Shown: positions 20,565 to 35,898 of the stretch, one piece after another
Position numbering within the stretch: the first letter of the stretch is position 1
How the letters are laid out: every line of letters begins with the position of its first letter
Assembly (NCBI RefSeq): GCF_014174355.1
Contig: NZ_JABEQF010000008.1
Location: 1-64,000 of the forward strand
Length of the DNA stretch: 64,000 nt
DNA from: Gluconacetobacter azotocaptans
GTDB lineage: Bacteria; Pseudomonadota; Alphaproteobacteria; Acetobacterales; Acetobacteraceae
Direction of reading: 5' to 3'
Program-made: the position numbers and the translations under genes
Notes under the pieces: model-generated
The model's input: the letters and a program-made list of their open reading frames with translations, nothing else
Databases searched by the model: none
What the model was told of the DNA's origin: nothing

Positions 20565-21998
20565 ATGAAGCGAACCTGCGGGATCGGGGCCGGAATGGCC
20601 GCCCTGCTGTGCGGCGGCACCGCCCTGGCCCAGCGCTATGACGGCAGCGGGTCGCCGACCTTCGTGCCCCATACGTTGCAGGAAGCGCTGGCTGCCGCCT
20701 ATCTGACCAACCCGACCCTGCAGCGGGAACGCGCGACCCTGCGTGCGACCGACGAGCAGGTGCCGACCGCGCTGGCCGGCTGGCGGCCCACGGTCACCGG
20801 CAACATGAACCTGACCTATTTCACCGGCACCAACTCGGTGGCGCGGCAGGAGGGGTATGCCGGATACGATCGCCGCTTCGACGTGCCGGGCTACAACGGC
20901 GGGGTCACCATTTCCCAGCCGCTCTATTCGGGCGGCCGTACAACGGCCAGCACCCACAAGGCCGTCAATCAGGTGATGGCCGAGCGGGCGAACCTGATCG
21001 CAACCGAGCAGCAGGTCTTCACCGATGTGGTCAGCGCCTATGTGGGCGTGATCGAGGACGAACAGCTTCTGCAGCTGAACATCAACAACGAGAAGGTGCT
21101 TCAGGAACAGCTTCGCGCCACCAGCGAGCGTTTTCGCGTCGGCGAGATCACGCGCACCGACGTGGCCCAGGCCGAGGCCGCGCTGGCCAGCGCCCGCGCC
21201 GCCCGGCAGGAAGCCGAGGGAACGTTGCAGACCGCGCAGGCGACCTATATGCAGATCGTGGGCATGGCGCCGCCGTCCAACCTGGTGCCGCCGCAACCCC
21301 TGGTGCTACCGGTGAAATCGCAGAACGAGGCGATCGCGCAGGCGGTCCAGAACAATCCCAACGTGGTCAATGCGCTGTTTACCGAGGCCTCGCAGAAGGA
21401 TGCGGTGTCCGTCGCCCTGGCCGCCATCCTGCCCAAGGTGACGGCCGAGGCCGCCTACACGCACGGCAGCAACCAGAGCAGCGGCCGGTCCCTGAACGAC
21501 GAGAAATACGCGCTGCTGAATTTCCAGGTCCCGATCTATCAGGGCGGATCGGAATATGCGGCCGTTCGCCAGGCACGCCAGCAGGCCACCGAGGCGCATC
21601 GCGCCGTCGATATCCAGCGGCGCGCGGCGTTGCAGCTCGCGTCGTCCAACTGGCAGAAGCTGGTGGCCTACAAGGCCTCGATCGACAGCAACCGTACCGC
21701 CATCTCATCGAACATCGTCGCCCTGGATGGGGTGGAGCGCCAGGCCATCGTCGGCACCAGCACGACGCTGGAGGTCCTGCAGCAGCAGCAGACGCTGCTC
21801 CAGGCCCAGGTGGCGCTGGTGCAGAGCCTGAGCAACCTCGTCACCGCGTCGTACGGCGTGGCGGCGGCCATCGGGCGCCTGACGTCGGTCGATCTGAAAC
21901 TGGACGTCCCGCGCTATGACGAGACCGCCTATTACAAGGCGGTCAAGGACCGGCTGTGGGGCATCAGCGACCACGCGACGGATCAGCCCGGGCGCTGA
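20565..21998 (+). CDS. tolC: TolC family outer membrane channel protein
   Basis: The 477-residue protein has a clear signal peptide (about 1-23, ending ALAQ). Two outer membrane efflux repeats follow: LQEALAAAYLTNPTLQRER and GGVTISQPLYSGGRT in the first half, and LLNFQVPIYQGGSEYAAVRQ in the second. Long heptad-rich helices carry the tunnel, for example SERFRVGEITRTDVAQAEA. TolC forms the trimeric outer membrane duct for type I secretion and multidrug efflux. GGGAGGGG precedes ATG 20565. The structured intergenic repeat begins immediately after the stop codon. Confidence 0.93.
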   Translation: MKRTCGIGAGMAALLCGGTALAQRYDGSGSPTFVPHTLQEALAAAYLTNPTLQRERATLRATDEQVPTALAGWRPTVTGNMNLTYFTGTNSVARQEGYAGYDRRFDVPGYNGGVTISQPLYSGGRTTASTHKAVNQVMAERANLIATEQQVFTDVVSAYVGVIEDEQLLQLNINNEKVLQEQLRATSERFRVGEITRTDVAQAEAALASARAARQEAEGTLQTAQATYMQIVGMAPPSNLVPPQPLVLPVKSQNEAIAQAVQNNPNVVNALFTEASQKDAVSVALAAILPKVTAEAAYTHGSNQSSGRSLNDEKYALLNFQVPIYQGGSEYAAVRQARQQATEAHRAVDIQRRAALQLASSNWQKLVAYKASIDSNRTAISSNIVALDGVERQAIVGTSTTLEVLQQQQTLLQAQVALVQSLSNLVTASYGVAAAIGRLTSVDLKLDVPRYDETAYYKAVKDRLWGISDHATDQPGR

Positions 21999-22159
21999 GA
22001 GTCCGTTTGTGAATCCGGTCTGGCGGCGATCCGACGCGCGTTTTCTGCGCTTCGATGCTCACGGCCAGCAAGGCCGCTCCGCTTCGATGCTCGAAAACAC
22101 ACGACGGACGCGCCCTTTTCAGGGCGCTCTCGCGCCAGACCGGATTCACAAATGGACTC
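21999..22159. repeat. Structured intergenic repeat, copy 1 (after tolC)
   Basis: A 27-nt left arm (21999-22025) is complementary to the right arm (22133-22159), with a single G-U pair. The roughly 107-nt interior holds a hairpin CGGCC/GGCCG (22062-22076) and a second hairpin GCGCCC/GGGCGC (22110-22127). Interior positions 22026-22110 match 35740-35824 at about 77 of 85 bases by eye. The terminal arms and the second hairpin differ from the other copy but stay self-complementary. Apparent ORFs here are fragments and not credible. It may act as a terminator, a REP-like element or a non-coding RNA; the sequence does not decide. Confidence 0.8.
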
Positions 22160-22288
22160 CGAATCCTCCGACCGCCCCGACGATGGCCGGAAAGCCGCGA
22201 TCGTTTCTTTCGGTCCGGTTTTCGGTATAAGCGGCGGACACGGGGCGTATCCCGCCGGCTATTCATCAAGTTAGGTCTGGCTTTCGCG

Positions 22289-24982
22289 ATGCTGAACAAG
22301 TCTTTCTCGCCCGGCGAGATCGAACCGACATTATATGCGCTCTGGGAACGGAATGGCGCGTTCGCCGCCGATCCGGGCAGCGACGCCCAGCCCTATACGA
22401 TCATGATCCCGCCGCCGAACGTGACCGGCACGCTGCATGTCGGCCACGCGCTGACCATGACGTTGCAGGACACGTTGATCCGCTGGCGGCGCATGCAGGG
22501 GCGCGACACCCTGTGGCAGCCGGGCACCGACCATGCCGGCATCGCGACGCAGATGGTGGTCGAACGCACCTTGCAGAAGGAAGGTACCTCGCGCCAGGCG
22601 ATGGGCCGCGAGGCGTTCGAGCAGCGCGTGTGGCAATGGAAGGCGGAATCGGGCGGCGGCATCACGACGCAGTTGCGCCGGCTGGGGGCCTCGCTGGACT
22701 GGCCGCGTGAACGCTTCACCATGGACGACGGCCTGTCGCAGTCCGTGCGCGAGGTCTTCGTCACCCTGTATCGCCAGGGGCTGATCTACCGGGACCGGCG
22801 GCTGGTGAACTGGGACCCGGCCTTCCGGTCCGCGATTTCGGATCTGGAGGTCGAGAATCGCGAAATCCAGGGCAGCCTGTGGTACATCCGCTATCCCGTC
22901 GAGGGCGAGCCGGGCCGCACCATCACCGTGGCGACCACCCGGCCCGAGACGATGCTGGGCGACATGGCGGTTGCCGTGCATCCCGAGGACGAACGCTATG
23001 CCGACCTGATCGGCCGGTCGCTGGTCCTGCCGCTGACGGGCCGGCGCATCCCCGTCGTCGCGGACACGCATTCGGACCCTGAAAAGGGCAGCGGCGCGGT
23101 CAAGATCACGCCCGCGCACGATTTCAACGATTTCGAGGTCGGACGCCGCCACAATCTGGCGATGCCCACCGTGCTGGACGCCGACGCCCGCATCACGCTG
23201 GCCGAGATCGAGGGCGATCTGCGGGTCGAGGACGGGCTGGCGGATCCGCAGTTCGTGCGGGGGCTGGACGGCCTGCCGCGCGACCAGGCGCGCAAGGCCA
23301 TGGTCGAGGAACTGGACCGCCTGGGCTGGCTGGAGAAGATCGAGCCGCACCGCAACCAGATCCCGCATGCCGAGCGCAGCGGGGCGGTGGTCGAACCCCG
23401 CCTGACCACCCAGTGGTATTGCGATGCTGCGACCCTGGCCGGCCCGGCGATCGCGGCGGTGGAGACCGGCCGCGTGCAGTTCGTGCCGCAGCAGTGGGAA
23501 AACACGTTCTTCGCCTGGATGCGTGAAATCCAGCCCTGGTGCATCAGCCGGCAGCTCTGGTGGGGACACCGTATTCCGGCCTGGTACGGCCCGGACGGAC
23601 ATGTCTTCGTGGCGCGGGACGAGGCCGATGCCCAGGCGCAGGCCCAGGCGCATTATGGCTGCGACGAGGCCCTGAGCCGGGACGAGGACGTGCTGGACAC
23701 GTGGTTCTCCTCGGCTCTCTGGCCGTTTTCCACGCTGGGCTGGCCGGAGCGCACGGCGGACCTGGCGCGCTACTACCCGACCGACGTGCTGGTGACGGGA
23801 TTCGACATCATCTTCTTCTGGGTGGCCCGGATGATGATGATGGGCCTGCATTTCATGGACGACGTGCCGTTCCGCAAGGTCTTCATCCACGGGCTGGTCC
23901 GCGACGAGCGCGGCCAGAAGATGTCCAAGAGCAAGGGCAACGGCATCGACCCGCTGGAGATGATCGACCAGTACGGCGCCGATGCCATGCGCTTTACGAT
24001 CTGCGCGCTGACCGGCCTGGGCCGCGACGTCAAGCTGGGGCAGAAGCGGATCGAGGAACATCGCTCCTTCGTCACCAAGATCTGGAATGCCGCGCGGTTC
24101 TGCGAGATGAACGGGGTGAAGCCGGTCGACGGCTTCCGCCCCCAGGACGCGACGTCGGCGCTCGGCCGCTGGATCCTGGACGAGGCCGCGCGCGCGACCG
24201 TCGAGGCCAATGCGGCGCTGGAGTCCTTCCGTTTCGATGAATATGCGGCGACCTGCTACCGCTTCGTCTGGAATTGCTTCTGCGACTGGTTCCTGGAATT
24301 CGCCAAGCCCGTGTTCAATGGCGACGATGCGGCGCAGGCGGCGGAAATCCGCGCGGTCGCGGCCCATGTGCTGGGCGTGATCCTGCGGATACTCCAGCCG
24401 GTGATGCCGTTCGTCACCGACGACCTGTGGGCGCAGTTCGGGTTCGGCGTGCCCGGCAGCCTGATGGCCACCGCATGGCCCGAAGCCGTCCGCCCGGATG
24501 GCGCCGAGGAGGCTGCCGCCGAACTGGACTGGGTCGTGCGGTTCATTTCGGCGATTCGTACCGTGCGCGCCGAAATGAACGTGCCGCCGTCGCGCCTGGC
24601 GCCCGTGCTGCTGCGTGACGCCGCGCCGGCGACGGTGGAGCGGGCCGGACGCTGGGCCGAGGCGATCGGCCGCATGGCCCGGGTGTCCGAGGTCACGGTG
24701 CTGGCGGGCGAGATGCCGCAGGGCGCGGCGCAGCTGGTGGTGGACGAGGCGACGCTGGTTATTCCGCTGGCCGGGATCATCGATTTGTCGCAGGAGCGCC
24801 AGCGCCTGGAAAAGGAGCGCCGGAAAATCGACGACGAAATCGCGAAGGTCGAGCGCAAGCTGGGCAACGCGGATTTCATCGCGCGTGCCAAGCCTGAGGT
24901 CGTCGAGGAAAATCGCGACCGCCTGGCCCAGCAGCAGGGCGAGCGCGCCCGGCTGGATGCAGCCCTGGCCCGCATCGCCTGA
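22289..24982 (+). CDS. valS: Valyl-tRNA synthetase
   Basis: The 897-residue class I synthetase has the HIGH motif in PPPNVTGTLHVGHALT (about 45-55), the KMSKS loop in QKMSKSKGNGID, the editing-domain segment TTRPETMLGDMAVAVHPED, and a C-terminal coiled-coil arm (about 830-897, LEKERRKIDDEIAKVERKLG). It charges tRNA-Val. ATG 22289 gives MLNKSFSPGEIEPTLYALWE, the expected N-terminus; the longer frame upstream reads through the repeat element and is not real. Only a weak ribosome site (TTAGG) precedes it. Confidence 0.96.
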   Translation: MLNKSFSPGEIEPTLYALWERNGAFAADPGSDAQPYTIMIPPPNVTGTLHVGHALTMTLQDTLIRWRRMQGRDTLWQPGTDHAGIATQMVVERTLQKEGTSRQAMGREAFEQRVWQWKAESGGGITTQLRRLGASLDWPRERFTMDDGLSQSVREVFVTLYRQGLIYRDRRLVNWDPAFRSAISDLEVENREIQGSLWYIRYPVEGEPGRTITVATTRPETMLGDMAVAVHPEDERYADLIGRSLVLPLTGRRIPVVADTHSDPEKGSGAVKITPAHDFNDFEVGRRHNLAMPTVLDADARITLAEIEGDLRVEDGLADPQFVRGLDGLPRDQARKAMVEELDRLGWLEKIEPHRNQIPHAERSGAVVEPRLTTQWYCDAATLAGPAIAAVETGRVQFVPQQWENTFFAWMREIQPWCISRQLWWGHRIPAWYGPDGHVFVARDEADAQAQAQAHYGCDEALSRDEDVLDTWFSSALWPFSTLGWPERTADLARYYPTDVLVTGFDIIFFWVARMMMMGLHFMDDVPFRKVFIHGLVRDERGQKMSKSKGNGIDPLEMIDQYGADAMRFTICALTGLGRDVKLGQKRIEEHRSFVTKIWNAARFCEMNGVKPVDGFRPQDATSALGRWILDEAARATVEANAALESFRFDEYAATCYRFVWNCFCDWFLEFAKPVFNGDDAAQAAEIRAVAAHVLGVILRILQPVMPFVTDDLWAQFGFGVPGSLMATAWPEAVRPDGAEEAAAELDWVVRFISAIRTVRAEMNVPPSRLAPVLLRDAAPATVERAGRWAEAIGRMARVSEVTVLAGEMPQGAAQLVVDEATLVIPLAGIIDLSQERQRLEKERRKIDDEIAKVERKLGNADFIARAKPEVVEENRDRLAQQQGERARLDAALARIA

Positions 24983-34586: not shown

Positions 34587-35711
34587 ATGAAGCTGAAGGC
34601 TGACCGCGCGACACTGCTCAAGGCGCTCGCCCATATCCAGAGTGTCGCCGAGAAGCGGAACACCATTCCGATCCTGGCCAATGTCCTGATCAACGTCGCC
34701 GATGGCCGGCTGACGCTGACCGCGACGGACATGGAAATCGCGGTGGTCGAGGAAATCGGCGCCGAGACCAGCCGGAACGGCGCGGTGACGGCGCCCGCCG
34801 CCGTCTTGTACGAGATCGTCCGCAAGCTTCCGGACAGCGTCGCCATCGAACTGGACCACGCGGGCGGCGACGCGCCACTGGCCCTGCGGGCCGGGCGCTA
34901 CGCCACCAGCCTGAACGTGCTGGACGTGGATGATTTCCCGTCGATGATGGCCGGCACCCTGCCGCATCACTTCACCATGCCCGCCGCCGTGCTGCGGGGC
35001 CTGATCGACCGGACGCGCTTCGCGATCTCGACCGAGGAAACCCGGTATTACCTCAACGGGATCTATCTGCATGTCGCGACCGTCGAGGGCGGCAGCATGC
35101 TGCGCGCCGTCGCGACCGACGGCCACCGCCTGGCGCGGGTCGAAACCGAGGTTCCGCCCGGGGCCGAGGGCATGCCCGGCGTCATCGTGCCGCGCAAGAC
35201 GATCGCCGAACTGCGCAAGCTGCTGGACGAGGGGGCCGAGAACGTCACGGTCGCCCTGTCGGATACGCGCATCCAGTTCACCGTCGGCACCGTCACGCTG
35301 ACGTCGAAGCTGATCGACGGCACCTTCCCGGAATATGACCGCGTGATCCCGCGCGGCAACGACAAGATCCTGCGGGTAGGGAAGCGCGATTTCTCGGACG
35401 CCGTGGCTCGCGTCGCCGCCATCAGCCAGGAGCGTTCGCGCCCCGTCAAACTGTCGATCGGCCGCAACCTGCTGACCCTGTCGGCGGTCAGCCCGGACCA
35501 GGGGACGGCCAAGGAAGAGCTCGACGACAATCACGTCAGCTACGAATCCGATCCGCTGGAGATCGGGTTCCAGGCCCGCTACCTGAACGACATCACGGAC
35601 CAGATTGAACGTGATGTCGAATTCGCATTCTCGGACAGTTCGGCGCCGACCATCGTGCGCGACGTGGGCAGCCCGTCGGCATTGTATGTCCTGATGCCGA
35701 TGCGAGTCTGA
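34587..35711 (+). CDS. dnaN: DNA polymerase III beta sliding clamp
   Basis: The 374-residue clamp protein has the expected length and three repeated folds. Visible are MKLKADRATLLKALAHIQ, RNTIPILANVLI, DGHRLARVE, LTSKLIDGTFPEYDRVIP and the C-terminal ALYVLMPMRV. It forms the ring that tethers polymerase and binds repair proteins. AAGGAG lies upstream of ATG 34587. The structured repeat copy 2 begins within its TGA stop codon and separates it from recF. Confidence 0.97.
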   Translation: MKLKADRATLLKALAHIQSVAEKRNTIPILANVLINVADGRLTLTATDMEIAVVEEIGAETSRNGAVTAPAAVLYEIVRKLPDSVAIELDHAGGDAPLALRAGRYATSLNVLDVDDFPSMMAGTLPHHFTMPAAVLRGLIDRTRFAISTEETRYYLNGIYLHVATVEGGSMLRAVATDGHRLARVETEVPPGAEGMPGVIVPRKTIAELRKLLDEGAENVTVALSDTRIQFTVGTVTLTSKLIDGTFPEYDRVIPRGNDKILRVGKRDFSDAVARVAAISQERSRPVKLSIGRNLLTLSAVSPDQGTAKEELDDNHVSYESDPLEIGFQARYLNDITDQIERDVEFAFSDSSAPTIVRDVGSPSALYVLMPMRV

Positions 35712-35875
35712 GAAGCTGTTTGATAAAATGGGTATGCCGGCGATCCGACGCGCGTTTTCTGTGCTCCGATGCTCACGGCCGTTAAGGCCGCTCCGCTTCG
35801 GTGCTCGAAAACACACGCCGGGCGTGCCGCTGCGCGGCACTCTCGCTCGGCCTGCCCACTTTTCAAACAGCTTCT
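35711..35875. repeat. Structured intergenic repeat, copy 2 (between dnaN and recF)
   Basis: The left arm at 35711-35739 pairs with the right arm at 35848-35875. The outer 13 bp (AGAAGCTGTTTGA) are perfect, and the inner part has one bulge, a wobble and two mismatches. The interior repeats copy 1 (about 77 of 85 bases from 35740), including the hairpin CGGCC/GGCCG with a changed loop (GTTAA instead of AGCAA). Its second hairpin is GTGCCGC/GCGGCAC (35824-35840), replacing the GCGCCC/GGGCGC of copy 1. The arms differ in sequence from copy 1 but keep pairing. No coding sequence is supported. Confidence 0.8.
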
Positions 35876-35898
35876 GACCGGGAGTCGTCAGGGTCGCC

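Follow-up and report, generated by a model that had tools for sequence, protein, structure and literature searches.

A MITE-like palindrome family in Gluconacetobacter whose arms change in step at orthologous sites, probably through template-switch copying

Introduction

In the usual MITE the ends are the conserved part, and covariation between the two sides of a stem is the standard proof of a functional RNA. The element described here resembles MITEs of the IS1031 subgroup of the IS5 family (IS1031-type insertion sequences and ISLrh, in the available part of PMC12016507) in its GAG-type terminal repeats, its 3-bp TNA duplication and the presence of IS5-family transposases in the genus. According to the same part of that source, 5'-TNA-3' is the preferred target of the IS1031 group, whose insertion produces a 3-bp repeat. 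Unlike the IS1031-type insertion sequences, our element has no coding capacity, and it differs from the MITEs of the subgroup in having an interior more conserved than its terminal repeats, with outer ~10 bases that are specific to the site yet matched between the arms.

Rewriting of one arm of a palindrome from the other is known as quasipalindrome correction. In the available parts of the respective sources, template switching makes the repeat more perfect in Escherichia coli lacZ reporters (PMC7202029), the arms of imperfect inverted repeats are homogenized in yeast (PMC8604942), and template switching is proposed for the stems of RNA genes (PMC8794818). Our case would share the rewriting of one arm from the other, but here a single mobile palindrome shows the signal at 37 orthologous sites in nature, and its arms and core contrast within the element. 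REP and REPIN sequences with RAYT (available parts of PMC3733652 and PMC3116915) are also dispersed extragenic palindromes; by comparison, the genome studied here has no detected Y1 transposase, and the element is ~162 bp long with a 3-bp TNA duplication and IS5-like ends. ERIC, NEMIS, and RUP are bacterial MITEs that are likewise short, palindromic, intergenic, and present in many copies, a likeness of description and not of sequence (PMC3733652, available part). Coupled evolution of their arms in situ is not described among the literature matches listed, as far as the available parts of those sources go, and no title describing the present element family was found among the matches listed from the open-licence literature.

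Results

The window, a stretch of 64,000 nucleotides from Gluconacetobacter azotocaptans (genome G000), contains copy 1 of the element directly 3' of the TGA of a tolC-family gene and upstream of valS, and copy 2 behind dnaN. The features are as follows.

21996..21998, + strand: TGA ending the tolC-family gene (20565-21998), presumed to be the left repeat of the TNA duplication; G105 and G109 have the same TGA without the element
21999..22159, + strand: element copy 1, full length, 161 bp, from BLAST and covariance-model matches; orthologous site empty in G105 and G109
21999..22025, + strand: left arm (terminal inverted repeat), starting GAGTCCGTTTG; 26 of 27 positions are the reverse complement of the right arm, the remaining one is G-U
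22026..22109, + strand: conserved core, a long imperfect stem, conserved in two copy alignments
22062..22076, + strand: apical hairpin CGGCC-AGCAA-GGCCG, stem constant, loop variable
22110..22127, + strand: 3' side hairpin GCGCCC-TTTTCA-GGGCGC, which is GTGCCGC/GCGGCAC in other copies
22133..22159, + strand: right arm (terminal inverted repeat), pairing with the left arm
22160..22162, + strand: CGA, probably the decayed right copy of the TGA target duplication, judging from TGA/TGA at other copies
35709..35711, + strand: TGA ending dnaN (34587-35711), left repeat of the duplication
35712..35874, + strand: element copy 2 of 163 bp, lying between dnaN and recF; G105 has a clean empty site here
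35875..35877, + strand: TGA, right repeat of the 3-bp duplication; G105, where the site is empty, has one TGA and then the same CCGGGAGTCGTCAGGG

A preliminary description of this DNA had reported an intergenic element with a conserved interior and a covarying terminal stem, and this observation is confirmed. The arms of copy 1 (GAGTCCGTTTGTGAATCC) pair over 27 positions as described (26 Watson-Crick pairs and one G-U, 21999-22025 with 22133-22159), and the interior identity between the two copies, counted there by eye, is exactly 77 of 85 positions. The reported change of the side hairpin, from GCGCCC/GGGCGC in copy 1 to GTGCCGC/GCGGCAC in the dnaN copy, is correct, and so is the constancy of CGGCC/GGCCG around a changed loop. 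The side hairpin is not formed in copies with GAGCCTGTTTGAAAATG arms, e.g., L034-L036. Copy 1 folds at -103.4 kcal/mol (shuffles, n = 200, average -56; z = -11.1) and the whole of copy 2 at -89.3 kcal/mol, its arm pairing being less perfect than that of copy 1. The element has no coding capacity, since the tolC, dnaN, and recF genes end before it or start after it; the open frame of valS does extend upstream into the element, as far as 22055, but the whole valS match falls from 22289 onward. Short (161-163 bp), non-coding and bounded by 27-bp terminal inverted repeats, the element has these traits of a MITE.

A new structured RNA had also been proposed, and the results do not establish one. 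No Rfam family matched the element at its gathering score (the sole match at E ≤ 10 was a microRNA at E 2.9, far under its cut-off), and no promoter-like site and no terminator-like GC-rich stem with a T run behind it was found in the scanned region 21900-22300 around copy 1. The core, whose stems covary almost only by transitions, may still have a role as a structure.

As the preliminary description had recommended, we searched for further copies with a covariance model, here built from 17 copies and used alongside BLAST, and found them in the genome itself, the genus, the family, and the class. At least 29 strong copies are present in G000 (E ≤ 2.3e-10, BLAST and covariance model). In the genus, 14 of 14 genomes have copies, at least 452 in total (covariance model, E 1e-25) and 4 to 87 each among the matches listed; two of the 14, G102 and G103, look like near duplicates at the loci compared. 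These are not the few copies that would have counted against a family. At the family level, at least 21 of 100 sampled genomes have matches, namely 2 of the window's genus and 19 of 98 other genera, and at the class level at least 5 of 240 sampled genomes match, the window's own among them. The exact core pattern occurs in 33 stretches, from Gluconacetobacter species and Nguyenibacter vanlangensis. The apical hairpin is missing from a subfamily of shorter elements, ~135 bp long (e.g., G000:C3:325282-325416), and a 57-bp remnant at G000:C6:169109-169165 (L358) consists of little beyond the two outer arms.

Covariation was measured on 60 of 87 eligible single-site copies. In these 60 copies from separate sites, 95.0% of cells are paired and 39 of 64 pairs show double changes. 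Double-changed cells, which count sequences and not events, number 501, against 136 in shuffles; none of 500 shuffles and no slid register (at most 97) reached this value, so that the covariation passes the significance test that had been asked of it. Some arm positions show all four Watson-Crick pairs; column 8, for example, has CG in 21 copies, UA in 17, GC in 10, AU in 8, one G-U and 3 unpaired. Over the arms there are 360 alternative Watson-Crick cells and only 13 G-U among 1,620 cells. The core is near constant, and variability is highest in the outer ~10 bases. GAG ends are no longer present in many copies, which have AAA, GTT, ATT, or GTG instead and still pair. In a set of 255 near-full-length copies, from which matches of <140 model positions and copies too near a contig end were excluded, 220 pair at ≥17 of the outer 22 positions, and arms that fail to pair, which would likewise have spoken against the family, are thus the minority.

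Static mismatches in the arms are more often A-C than G-U: 62 versus 13 in the 60 copies, and 167 versus 23 in 170 copies, where about half of the A-C lie at position 18 alone. A first, smaller set of 32 pairs gave 18 A-C, 6 G-U, and 25 other mismatches, with 22 transitions and 23 transversions. Because A-C is G-U on the other strand, selection for a structure of the complementary strand could underlie the static A-C excess.

We then compared copies at orthologous sites, which were matched by both flanks; each site contributed a single spanning tree. The initial set comprised 85 ortholog pairs. A threshold of ≥16 of 22 outer pairs, applied to both copies, left 71, of which 53 form the spanning trees. 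These 53 are partly dependent on one another, and among the pairs of low identity some may represent two insertions into the same stop codon. Over 37 sites and 1,166 arm positions, 63 positions changed in step with pairing in both copies, compared with 7.6 expected from the arms' own rates and a randomized mean of 6.2 (maximum 15 in 2,000). When only arms ≥75% identical are kept (49 pairs), 40 coupled changes stand against 3.9 expected. An example is L006/L176, with one T-to-G in both arms, which are otherwise perfect; other coupled changes within near-identical arms at orthologous sites are seen in L134/L146, L160/L276, and L235/L315, and in L012/L200, outside the 53 pairs, several arm differences are all matched, each copy pairing at 27 of 27 positions.

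The coupled arm changes comprise 28 transitions and 35 transversions, not significantly different from the flanks (1,956 and 1,566; p = 0.10), and the arms are thus kept matched through coupled changes of all mutation types, as template switching predicts. One-sided arm changes gave G-U 22 times, A-C 29 times, and other mismatches 45 times (G-U versus A-C, p = 0.40), and 7 arm positions were neither coupled nor one-sided. Selection on an RNA would favor transitions via G-U, and G-U over A-C; neither is seen in the arms, so templated copying fits better. For RNA genes, 61.0% of instantaneous compensatory changes were of the G-U-reachable type (PMC8794818, available part). The two 15-base versions of each of the 40 coupled changes were sought at other sampled sites. 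Neither occurred elsewhere for 17, which disfavors conversion from other copies there; one version was found for 19 and both for 4, and ectopic conversion is possible for those.

Rates were compared in 49 of the 53 pairs, those with arms ≥75% identical, a filter that lowers arm divergence. The arms diverge by 7.6 and 7.7% and the right flank by 7.8% (ratio 0.97, bootstrap 0.72-1.30), and hence the arms lack the slowing expected of constrained stems. Divergence is 5.2% in the mostly coding left flank, 5.1% in the core, and 10.7% in the 3' side hairpin; the core therefore evolves at 0.65 (0.51-0.83) of the rate of the right flank, but at 0.98 of that of the mostly coding left flank. In the 28 of these 49 pairs in which the core could be scored, its stems show 12 coupled transitions and 1 transversion, which differs from the arms (p = 0.0017), and its one-sided changes are G-U 14, A-C 9, and others 7. 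Evolution thus follows different regimes in the two parts, with arms that look copied and a core that looks constrained or more recently shared.

Target-site duplications and empty sites, the marks of a bacterial MITE, were both found, with clean empty sites at dnaN and L050. At dnaN, G105 reads GGGTC-TGA-CCGGG and the window TGA-(163 bp)-TGA-CCGGG. The dnaN element is also absent from the orthologues in G102, G103, G111, G100, G107, G108, G042, G101, G104, and G106; in G109 it is present with an internal deletion and one-sided arm changes. G105 is the nearest to G000 among G105, G109, and G102 in all four stretches compared, and its lack of the dnaN element implies loss, exchange, or two insertions. 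The second clean empty site belongs to the 135-bp copy G000:C3:325282-325416 and has CTA where the filled site has TTG/TTA (L050 versus L150). The tolC site is without the element in G105 and G109, and G102/G103 have there a copy with a different left arm and without the right arm. Within the tolC-valS interval, L092/L093 (G102, G103) and L099 (G106) carry an element or remnant after a stop codon, which suggests that the interval has been used repeatedly.

The 3-bp flanks are identical in 25 of 205 copies tested. In a set of 28 copies with identical 3-bp flanks, T occupies the first position in 25, G the second in 22, and A the third in 26; the preceding base is C in 25 and the following base is G in 19, giving the consensus C-TGA-(element)-TGA-G. 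A TNA target with a 3-bp duplication is thus present, as in the IS1031 subgroup. Insertions are strongly oriented: the left end abuts the stop codon of the upstream gene in 93 of 195 copies, the right end in 4, and neither in 98, and among copies with duplication the counts are 14, 1, and 10. The left gene is directed toward the element in 153 of 194 copies.

The genus contains IS5-family elements with related ends. One of 883 bp has the ends GAGACTGTTTGGAAAATC/GAGCCTGTTTGGGAAATC and a TTA duplication, one of 897 bp has GAGTCCGTTTGAGAATGG/GAGCCTGTTTGAGAATGT and a TAA duplication, and one of 930 bp has the end GAGCCCGATCCGAAAGTT and duplications of TGA, TTA, or TAA. Both the 883- and the 897-bp element have a transposase that matches NF033580, IS5 family. 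The ends of the 897-bp element are close to the arms of copy 1 and to the GAGCCTGTTTGAAAATG arms common to several G000 copies with intact duplications. Ends shared with an autonomous element, another trait of MITEs, were found as similar but not identical ends in L375 and L389 (congeneric G042). These ends and targets point to an IS1031-type transposase as the probable mover of the element, and the MITE-like character proposed in the preliminary description agrees with the TNA duplication, the clean empty sites, and the IS5-family elements. Among eight loci opened in G000 and G105 (17 and 19 end-pattern matches), none combined element-type ends with a transposase of its own; what they contained was limited to arms or fragments of the element. 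The insertion sequence ends found in G000 (L031, L032) differ from the arms and were rejected. The REPIN half of the earlier proposal was also rejected, along with RAYT, since PF01797 (Y1) had no match in the draft assembly of G000 at E 0.01.

Several insertion sequences of IS5 type with GAG ends and TNA duplications were seen (L372, L375, L389, and others). PF01609 matches number 45 and 53 in G102 and G103 and 2 in the window's genome.

Discussion

We consider the element to be, probably, a non-autonomous MITE of the IS5 family, IS1031 subgroup, whose arms are kept matched by template-switch copying. A resident or visiting IS1031-type transposase would recognize the GAG-type ends and insert the element at C-TNA-G, duplicating TNA. 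Where the TNA is the TGA or TAA of a stop codon, the duplication would rebuild it, so that the gene is undamaged and the insertion survives. The inserted element would persist as a long imperfect palindrome, and at replication or repair the nascent strand may fold back, with one arm serving as template for the other. A mutation on one side would then be either erased or written into the partner arm, and over time each site would gain an arm sequence of its own with the arms still matching. We infer template switching as the copying step because in a quasipalindrome it accounts for coupled changes that show no G-U bias and accumulate at a near-neutral rate. The preliminary description had listed, among its options, a replication mechanism that rebuilds the palindrome, and the coupled changes in situ, which lack the G-U and transition signature of RNA compensation, favor it.

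Several observations count against template correction. The static A-C excess, much of which goes back to a single inherited position, is one. Another is that a CGC/TGG mismatch at arm positions 18-20 is retained in 101 of 205 copies; together with the one-sided changes of the dnaN copy in G109, it shows that arm correction is incomplete. Pairing is not better with age, as copies without target duplication pair at 23.80 of 27 positions versus 24.60, and a rise of palindrome perfection with age, not seen on average, was rejected. Loop inversion is a side product of some template switches only; no reverse-complement pair was present among 60 apical loops. The orientation bias counts against the mobile part of our explanation, since a symmetric TNA target does not predict it. 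The bias reflects either a transposase that takes its orientation from the G of C-TGA-G or selection on orientation, and it is the strongest point left in favor of an RNA-level role.

Such a role would mean that compensatory selection on a transcribed 3'-UTR hairpin (a terminator, stabilizer, or sRNA, on either strand) maintains the paired arms. We regard this as unlikely. In its favor are the very stable fold, the orientation (93 versus 4, and 14 versus 1 among copies with duplication, with the left gene toward the element in 153 of 194), the core stems with their 12 coupled transitions to 1 transversion and one-sided G-U of 14 versus A-C of 9, the core divergence at 0.65 of that of the right flank, and the static A-C excess when read as G-U on the complementary strand. 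The arms themselves speak against it. In situ they have G-U 22 versus A-C 29, transversions make up 35 of 63 coupled changes, and they evolve at about the flank rate; moreover, 21900-22300 has no terminator-like site, Rfam offers no family, and the core rate equals that of the mostly coding left flank (0.98). A more speculative version of template-switch copying, which we hold to be quite improbable, gives the core the active part: as an element-encoded fold or replication block it would drive fold-back synthesis, arm repair would belong to the life cycle of the palindrome itself, and the almost transition-only covariation would mark the core as the selected functional part.

Selection at the DNA level, for a hairpin or cruciform or for the matching ends that a transposase requires, would penalize all mismatches alike and so predict the missing G-U preference observed in situ. 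It would, however, have to be strong at each site, but the arms change at about the flank rate; selection through transposition cannot keep a copy fixed at one site across species, and the many copies without GAG ends (AAA, GTT, ATT, GTG) still pair. We therefore judge it very unlikely. A further idea is that nothing is coupled in situ and that arm differences stem from independent insertions by insertion sequences with different ends or from conversion by other copies. Insertion sequences with different GAG ends do exist, repeated use of a stop codon is likely (at tolC the left arms differ between the window and G102/G103, with G105/G109 empty), and in some same-site pairs the coupled differences extend to 7 of 22 arm positions (L282/L198). 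This reading is made highly improbable by the coupled changes inside near-identical arms (L006/L176, L134/L146, L160/L276, L235/L315) and by the 40 that persist at ≥75% arm identity, 17 of them without a sampled donor.

What is surprising in this family is how its covariation arises, which looks more like copying during replication than like selection on an RNA. Its hundreds of copies show strong covariation that seems to be due mainly to mutational copying, with an internal contrast of arms and core. As natural replicates they could serve to measure the frequency with which template switching imitates compensatory evolution. The family is also a warning for covariation-based RNA discovery in palindromic mobile DNA.

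An origin of the arms from a host terminator at the target was rejected, because the empty sites of dnaN and L050 have no arm-like hairpin. At L276, G106 has a short hairpin AGCCTGAGCCG/CGGCTCAGG with similar outer arms, where G104, G100, and G101 have the element with arms starting AGCCTGAGC; we read it as an internal (core) deletion in G106. Head-to-tail arrays of 2-3 elements at ~165-bp spacing occur at L115 (1501-1931), L226 (701, 866), and L223 (700, 1034, 1199), and further ones at G106:C7:92015-92509 and G106:C11:45815-46294. In some arrays, e.g., L115, the later units retain the core and right arm, and their left arm is unrelated.
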